DNA from: a virus
Reading direction: 5' to 3' (one strand)
DNA: 24,579 nt
Virus record (IMG/VR): IMGVR_UViG_3300047463_000062
Coordinates: 1-24,579 of that record
The position numbers were made by a program, and so were the translations under genes. Every line of letters begins with the position of its first letter. Positions within the stretch are counted from its first letter, which is position 1. Below are positions 16,961-18,473 of the stretch, one piece after another. Below the pieces are notes generated by a model. That model was not told where the DNA came from and did not search any database. It saw only the letters and a list, made by a program, of their open reading frames with translations.

Positions 16961-18473
16961 ATGGCAAATACCTTGCTAACTATATCCAAAATCACCAACG
17001 AAGCGTTGATGGTTTTGGAAAACGAATTAACTTTTACAAGTGAAGTAGACCGAAATTACGATGACCAATTTGCCGTTAAATGACAGCGGCCTAGCTCTTT
17101 GAGAGTTAGGAAAATTTTCTCTGATTGACTTGGAAGGCTAGAAGTAGCCGACAGGGCGCAAGCGAAAGCAGCGTGAACGACTAAGTGAGAAAACCCCCAA
17201 GGGGGATGCGATAGTCTGAACAGAGCCATAACAAAAGAAAGCTCTGAGTTTGAGTCGAAGAACTTGAACCGCCACGAAAGTGGTCAGTAAGCGAAAGCTG
17301 AAAGTAACAGAATGTGTTGGTGCGAAAATCGGTGCGACAGTTAATGTCCGCAGACCAGGTCGTTTCATCGGCACTACAGGCCCTGCTCTGAATGTGGAAG
17401 ATTTAAATGAAACTTCTGTTCCTGTAACTCTATCAACGCAATTCCATGTGGATACCCAATTTACTACCCAGGATTTGGCTTTATCATTGGATATGTTTTC
17501 GGACAGAATTTTGAAACCTGGCGTGGCCGCAATTGCGAATAAGATAGATTTTGATGGCACAACAACTGCTGCTTTAAATACAGCAAACATTGTTGGCACA
17601 GCAGGCACTCCTCCGACTTCTTTGTTGACTTATTTGAATGCTCAAGCTTACTTAGATTCTGAAGGCGCTCCTCGTGATGGTCGCAGAAGCTGTATCGTTG
17701 AGCCATTTACATCTGCAACAATCGTTGACAGCTTGAAAGGTTTGTTTGTTCCTACTGCTGAAATTTCTTCTCAATACACCAAAGGTTTAATGGGTCGTGA
17801 TTCAGGCGGTATGAACTGGAAGCTTGACCAAAACATTGTTTCACAAACTTTTGGTAACTTCTCAACCAACACCGTAACTGCATCTGTTAACTTGACAACA
17901 ACTGGTGGTATTTTGACTAGCGGTTGGGCATCAAGCTCTACCATCACTTTGAGCGCTGCCAACACAGGCACAATCAACTTGAACGCTGGTGATACTTTCA
18001 CCATCGCTGGTGTGTATGCAACTAACCCACAAAACCGCCAACCCTATGGCACAAACAAACTGCGTTCATTCGTAGTTAAGCAAGCTGTATCTGTAGCTTC
18101 AGGTTCAAGCGTTTCTGTAACTATCAGTCCTGCAATTATCTCTGCTGGTCAGTTCCAAAACGTAAGCATCCCAAGCCCATCTAGCTCTGCTGCTGTAACA
18201 TTCTTTGCAAGCCAATACAACGCAAGCGGTAATGGTGTTGTATCTCCACAGAACATCGTGATGCATAGGAATGCGTATACACTTGCCATGGCCGACCTCG
18301 AGCTTCCTGAAGGAGTCCATTTTGCTGGTCGTGCAAGCGACAAAGAAATTGGATTGTCTTTGCGTGTTGTTAGGCAATATACCATCAATAACGATAGTAT
18401 TCCTACTCGTATTGATGTGTTGTATGGTTGGGCGCCTCTGTATCCTGAACTCGCTTGCCGAGTTGCAGCTTAA
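16961..18473 (+). CDS. Major coat protein, P22 gp5-like, interrupted by a group I intron
   Basis: Coding is join(16961-17076, 17315-18473), giving 424 residues. Exon 1 encodes residues 1-38 and two bases of codon 39: MANTLLTISKITNEALMVLE, then NELTFTSEVDRNYDDQFAV. Exon 2 continues VGAKIGATVNVRRPGRF, then VEDLNETSVPVTL and FTTQDLALSLDMFSDRILKP, the pattern of the P22-type coat family. Joined, DQFAV-V-GAKIG has the spacing I recall for homologues such as FGVEGAKIG. Unspliced, translation from 16961 stops at TGA 17081-17083 after 40 residues. A GTG at 17280 inside the intron opens the exon 2 frame, but that product lacks the N-arm. GGAGA precedes the ATG by 7 nt. The scaffold gene lies upstream and a probable head-associated protein downstream. 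Confidence 0.93.
17077..17314 (+). ncRNA. Group I self-splicing intron (238 nt, no ORF) in the coat gene
   Basis: The intron RNA should excise itself by two guanosine-initiated transesterifications. P1 pairs exon GCCGU (17072-17076) with GCGGC (17086-17090), with the required U.G pair at the cut. P10 pairs the 3' exon TGTT (17315-17318) with GACA (17082-17085), directly adjoining P1. The last intron base is G. P2 is 17091-17097 with 17103-17109. P3 is TTTTCTC (17115-17121) with GAGAAAA (17187-17193). P5 is 17136-17140 with 17145-17149. P7 is GACTA (17179-17183) with TAGTC (17212-17216), the guanosine-binding helix. P8 is the C/G hairpin at 17194-17205, and P9 is CAGAGC (17221-17226) with GCTCTG (17241-17246). 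Two GAAA-loop hairpins follow at 17272-17283 and 17290-17299. No homing endonuclease is encoded. Confidence 0.92.

Follow-up and report, generated by a model that had tools for sequence, protein, structure and literature searches.

A group I intron without an open reading frame in a P22-like phage coat gene, and putative core-less mini-introns in related phages

Background

The 24.6-kb viral contig analysed here (the window, meaning this whole stretch of DNA) encodes, in order, a terminase (Terminase_3), a P22-like portal, a head scaffolding protein and a coat gene. The first coding segment of the coat gene (MANTLL...DDQFAV) runs into AAA TGA, and the longest ORF after it, a GTG-started ORF of 397 aa at 17280-18473, starts within the interrupting sequence. 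Automatic gene calling would probably give this ORF as the coat gene. What, then, separates the two parts of the coat gene, and how would a complete coat protein be obtained from them? The best explanation of the whole, in which our confidence is very high, is that the coat gene of a P22-like podophage is interrupted at positions 17077-17314 by a group I intron without an ORF. The parts of the gene and its splice sites are listed below.

16961-17076, plus strand: coat gene exon 1, codons 1-38 and two bases of codon 39
17072-17076, plus strand: P1 exon strand GCCGU, cut after U17076 (read from the sequence and from a P1 search)
17077-17314, plus strand: group I intron, 238 nt, no ORF
17081-17083, plus strand: in-frame TGA, stopping translation of the unspliced mRNA before the core
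17082-17085, plus strand: P10 guide GACA, pairing with exon-2 UGUU (17315-17318)
17086-17090, plus strand: P1 internal guide strand (IGS) GCGGC, with a U17076.G17086 wobble at the cut
17314, plus strand: terminal guanosine (omega-G), the last base of the intron
17315-18473, plus strand: coat gene exon 2, the remainder of codon 39 through the stop

Intron boundaries and splice-site pairings

Coat proteins of uninterrupted relatives were aligned to genomic DNA, with insertions allowed in any phase and splice rules left unused. This alignment places the insert in the window at exactly 17077-17314, the same limits as given by the rule of a U before and a G at the end of the intron. Uninterrupted coat genes are found in relatives at 72 loci in one set and at a further 77 in another, some of the contigs overlapping, and codons 1-39 of such genes align without gaps to exon 1. 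The identical site is occupied in four other contigs (L114, L164, L172 and L202) by introns of 239-246 nt with identical junctions. The splice sites 17076/17315, which the first-pass annotation had read from the pairings and the reading frame, are thereby recovered independently of splice rules.

Joining 17076 to 17315 (predicted mRNA junction ...TTTGCCGT/TGTTGGTG...) gives a product of 424 aa without stops. It matches the P22 coat protein family PF11651 (E-value = 3.4e-32) over residues 1-421 of the protein and positions 1-420 of the 423 in the profile. This full-length product bears out the earlier assignment to a P22-type coat gene, as well as the join DQFAV-V-GAKIG, which restores the frame.

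The P1 of the window consists of five pairs only. Its P10 belongs to a five-pair run conserved at this site, a fifth pair U17081.G17319 extending it to UGUUG/UGACA. All 81 distinct full introns of the coat gene follow an exon U and end in G; their boundaries were found without the U/G rule and then shifted by at most two bases. Every insertion site has its own guide, forming a P1 with U.G at the cut. P10, weak or absent at a few sites, has three to five pairs at most of the others. The P1 score under swapping of exons among sites is weak when taken alone (the observed mean is reached in 8% of swaps), and we place no weight on that test.

A covarying group I fold

Downstream of P1 the sequence folds into the helices listed below. 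P2 is read from the sequence; the other helices come from a covariation analysis of an aligned set of 46 coat-gene introns, covering P3 to P9.2 and including the P3/P7 pseudoknot.

17091-17109, plus strand: P2 hairpin CUAGCUCU/AGAGUUAG (17091-17098/17102-17109)
17115-17121, plus strand: P3 5' strand, pairing with 17187-17193; two-sided changes in six of seven pairs, 99.1% of cells paired
17129-17155, plus strand: P4 (17129-17132/17152-17155), fully paired and nearly invariant
17136-17149, plus strand: P5 (17136-17140/17145-17149), covarying
17156-17174, plus strand: P6 with P6a loop (17156-17159/17171-17174), 100% paired, two-sided changes in three pairs
17177-17217, plus strand: P7, the guanosine-binding site; A17177-U17217, bulged C17178 beside the G-binding G-C pair, GACUA (17179-17183) with UAGUC (17212-17216)
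17187-17193, plus strand: P3 3' strand
17194-17205, plus strand: P8, CCCCC/GGGGG, covarying
17221-17246, plus strand: P9, CAGAGC/GCUCUG, two-sided changes in five of six pairs, 99.6% paired
17249-17268, plus strand: P9.1, two-sided changes in seven of seven pairs
17272-17283, plus strand: P9.2, CCAC/GUGG

Over the 46 introns 95.1% of the cells are paired and 445 double changes are observed, against 138 in shuffles; slid versions of the structure reach at most 103 double changes and at most 43% pairing. Abundant compensatory change supports P3, P5, P6, P8, P9 and P9.1. P7 is paired and nearly invariant in coat-gene introns, as is P4. Outside the coat gene, four forms of the pair spanning the P7 bulge occur: A-U (bulged C), G-C (bulged A), U-A and C-G. 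Every Watson-Crick type is represented, which is what a guanosine site should show. The P4 part of the core, a nearly invariant helix of 4 bp next to a long J3/4, is backed by conservation, not by covariation. As to subgroup marks, three bases lie between P7 and P3, which leaves no P7.1/P7.2 (the IA marks), and P9.1 and P9.2 are present. The P3, P7, P8 and P9 helices, P1 U.G, P10 and terminal G on which the first reading of an ORF-less group I intron was based are all found in place.

A covariance model was also built from 34 introns of other genes, with no coat introns among them. It gives a single match in the window, at 17108-17218 (121 bits, E-value = 3.6e-27). The model sequences came mainly from a P7-region motif search, and their extraction also demanded TGATTGACTTGG, so that the P4 5' strand is fixed by selection in this model. 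The outcome with the standard model is different. The first-pass annotation had proposed a search with Rfam RF00028 (Intron_gpI) and had counted the lack of a significant covariance-model hit against the intron; RF00028 finds nothing in the window even at E-value ≤10, where only unrelated low-score Rfam matches appear, and by the letter of that proposal the result is unfavourable. Among the records searched, however, just two members of the family match RF00028 (24.7 and 26.6 bits, E-value about 8e-7, model positions 1-253, the full extent of the model), and every RF00028 score in the family lies below the 50-bit cut-off, while the family-specific model succeeds in the window. RF00028 is therefore insensitive to this intron family. 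Its cut-off is a detection threshold, not the definition of a structural class, and the window intron has the secondary structure of the RF00028 class although this copy has no RF00028 match. Empty sites, same-site introns, covariation and the match of the model built without coat introns together rule out chance.

An intron family in capsid genes of aquatic phages

Core motif scans recover at least 119 IMG/VR contigs in each of two scans; elsewhere the yield is small, with only two contigs from 85k species genomes and a few phage records. Within the P22-like coat gene, the matches listed comprise 81 distinct full introns of 215-281 nt, distributed over 18 sites. One coat gene (L354) holds four full introns and one of the mini-introns described below. 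The family also splits several unrelated major head proteins (PHROG 1357, 9953, 14242 and weakly 267), a P22-like portal and ribonucleotide reductase (RNR); carriers outside the coat gene include L180, L249, L179, L118, L126 and L094, with head protein, portal and RNR genes. The family colonises capsid genes of aquatic phages, the window phage being from freshwater.

Two public records carry members of the family. In MW202674 (ctn9Y15; L002) one coat gene, interrupted at codon 85 by a family intron, is annotated as two P22 coat proteins and a hypothetical ORF, an example of how gene callers split coat genes, here with a spurious ORF as well, where the standard model overlooks the intron. In Roseobacter phage CRP-118 (OR420741, about 35.07-35.19 kb; L004) an unannotated family intron splits an RNR annotated as two CDS, and it matches the family R1 model with E-value = 9e-25. 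In another contig (L222:1395-1573 and downstream) the RNR exon past the family intron appears to hold an intein too (CVTPDTLVITENG...).

Some members of the family contain ORFs within peripheral loops (P8 region). GIY-YIG-like ORFs occur in L090, L157, L178, L194 and L199, the last confirmed by Pfam (E-value = 1e-9); HNH-like ORFs, judged by eye only, occur in L103, L108 and L175. Since some relatives carry such GIY-YIG or HNH-like homing endonucleases, the window copy probably arrived by homing from an endonuclease-bearing element or is a deletion derivative of one.

Putative core-less mini-introns in relatives

The coat genes of 54 contigs (20 haplotypes) contain core-less inserts of 32-41 nt at codon 40, three bases downstream of the site of the window's intron; the window itself has no mini-intron. 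These inserts first appeared as interruptions of 34-41 nt in five lineages whose codon 51 is occupied by a full intron, and the total of 54 contigs combines a mini-intron motif scan with a second, independent one that used the codon-51 P1 motif. Carriers include L035 (1074-1107), L147, L106, L113, L196 and L354. By the splice-rule-blind alignment the two ends fall after a U and after a G. Each insert forms a P1 of its own, in which a U.G wobble lies at the cut and one U-U mismatch is constant, as well as its own P10, and leaves no room for a core. The L035 mini-intron reads GCTGTGGT/AAATTAATCCTGCCTCAGTTTAACTGTAGTATTG/AGGAGCC, with P1 CUGUGGU/GCCUCAG and P10 AGGA/UCCU; the predicted junction after excision of a mini-intron is ...GCTGTGGT/AGGTGG....

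Both helices show compensatory changes, and the haplotypes keep every pair except the constant U-U. P1 covaries with mostly synonymous exon changes (GCT/CAG, GCA/CTG, GCG/CCG, and GGT/GCC to GAT/GTC), and P10 is paired in 80 of 80 cells. When partners are shuffled, none of 20,000 trials reaches the observed value for either P1 or P10, values that overstate independence owing to the kinship of the haplotypes.

Eleven codons downstream, at codon 51, all 54 carriers show the 5' splice site of a full intron, whose core is seen in the 50 contigs that are long enough. Conversely, the contigs found through the codon-51 P1 motif all have the mini-intron; two contigs with a different codon-51 intron (L278 and L272) have none. 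Three contigs (24.1, 35.7 and 36.4 kb, completeness not established) yielded no family core other than that of the codon-51 intron, and RF00028 adds none. No second intact coat gene was found in mini-bearing genomes, those checked having a single one. All 26 distinct carriers have GTG as codon 39, compared with 5 of 141 non-carriers. Of the 39 codons of exon 1, 37 vary among the carriers, 31 of these silently, which indicates that the coat protein is still under selection.

We consider it likely that the mini-introns are natural core-less group I introns, excised by the core of the neighbouring full intron in the same transcript. This reading is based on the covarying P1 and P10, the constant company of the codon-51 intron, its being the only core in three contigs, and the single coat gene. 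No covarying pairing was found between the mini-intron and the downstream intron, and docking through tertiary contacts of P1 is therefore assumed.

The position of stop codons suggests a role for these inserts. Among coat introns, an in-frame stop before P3 is present in all 58 that have no upstream mini or micro insert, and is missing in 14 of the 23 that have one (Fisher p = 4e-10 before allowing for relatedness). As stopless introns occur only behind such inserts, a mini-intron likely persists as a removable stop codon upstream of an intron that often has no stop of its own.

Translational bypass of the mini-introns was considered and rejected: their lengths (32, 33, 34, 40 and 41 nt) represent each of the three phases, and TGA invariably precedes the resumed codon, leaving no landing codon that matches a GTA take-off. 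Matches to the mini-intron pattern at 18 loci outside the coat gene are probably due to chance.

The 3' half of a mini-intron, for example in L196, resembles a copy of the end of exon 1 (ACTGTGG vs GCTGTGG), which hints that these inserts may have originated by partial duplication or recombination. A still smaller case may exist in one lineage. Two contigs from sister samples (L230:5927-5937 and L338) have an 11-nt insert, CTATAAACCTG, after coat codon 35; it follows a U, ends in G and carries TAA, and its P1 could draw on exon sequence (GACGAU with GUUGUC). The same codon-35 site holds a full intron in L226, and the downstream full intron of L230 and L338, at codon 48, has no early stop of its own.

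Predicted splicing of the coat transcript

Given the boundaries, covarying fold, P1/P10 complementarity, frame-restoring join and family membership observed in the window, the established chemistry of group I introns would imply two transesterifications with exogenous G. A ribosome on the pre-mRNA would halt at the TGA of 17081-17083, so that the core could fold. P1 (GCCGU/GCGGC) would dock onto the P4-P6/P3-P9 core, and a guanosine bound in P7 would attack after U17076. G17314 would then occupy the guanosine site, P10 would align exon 2, and the exons would be joined to encode the 424-aa coat protein. Stops early in an intron are known to keep ribosomes off the core (PMC3984707), a pattern that the stop of the window fits. 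Judged by its sequence, the window intron is real and almost certainly functional; we infer its RNA splicing, and the dependence of virion production on it.

Three other explanations deserve mention. The intron could be a degenerate copy that no longer splices, the coat gene being broken or the phage defective. ORF-less copies are often late stages of the intron life cycle, which the ORF-less state here would fit. We regard this as very improbable, as all core helices, P1, P10 and the terminal G are intact, conserved introns occupy the identical site in four more contigs, and the joined coat protein is full length without stops. Far less credible still is a structured insertion that stays in the RNA and is bypassed in translation by a frameshift or ribosome hop. 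The frame is indeed broken by stops, as it is in T4 gene 60, but the fold and the covariation at the splice sites are typical of group I introns and the inserts in the coat gene (215-281 nt) occur in all phases. An assembly or sequencing artefact, conceivable for one metagenomic contig, has equally negligible probability, being refuted by same-site introns in four contigs from independent samples and by same-family introns in the isolate phage CRP-118 and the complete genome MW202674.

The group I intron would put the most abundant structural protein of the phage under RNA splicing. Empty and occupied alleles exist together in the swarm of sites in one coat gene, which makes it a natural experiment in intron spread.

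Comparison with known systems

The first-pass annotation called the placement in the N-arm of a P22-like coat gene unusual. For a P22-like coat gene we found no earlier report in open-access papers; in capsid genes at large, introns are precedented. The capsid intron of mycobacteriophage LittleE is spliced in vivo, as seen by RT-PCR (PMC3706429), a capsid-gene intron of Tuc2009 is cited in the same paper, and the major capsid protein (MCP) genes of crAss-like phages hold several introns (PMC7886860). LittleE resembles the window in having a probable group I intron in the major capsid gene, with an exon U and a terminal G, and differs in its homing endonuclease ORF, capsid family and mycobacterial host; the ORF-less tail-gene intron of BAKA (265 bp) is nearer in size to that of the window than is the LittleE intron (PMC3706429). 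In crAss-like phages (PMC7886860) and Jug phage (PMC12363816), too, a single genome has several group I introns, which lie in MCP, terL, nrdD and further core genes. They are, however, gut phages with another capsid family, and their introns were recognised through their endonucleases or with published models of group I subtypes. The RNR intron of CRP-118 is of the same family as that of the window, in a different host gene and not annotated as an intron. The novelty is hence the site in a P22-like coat gene, group I splicing in capsid genes being known; less expected are the 18 sites in one coat gene, among the matches listed, together with several unrelated major head proteins.

As to the mini-introns, a search of the open-access literature brought up no natural group I intron without a core. 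The closest parallels are engineered trans-excision splicing and spliceozymes, in which a short, separate RNA segment is cut out by a group I core (PMC4094466 and references therein). If our reading is true, the mini-introns are the natural counterpart of trans-excision splicing, dependent introns that have shed their ribozyme, a step of the kind that group II introns are frequently proposed to have taken towards the spliceosome. In the engineered systems, as would be the case for the mini-introns, the core removes a short segment from another stretch of RNA; in the former the ribozyme supplies the guide, whereas the natural mini-intron holds its own.
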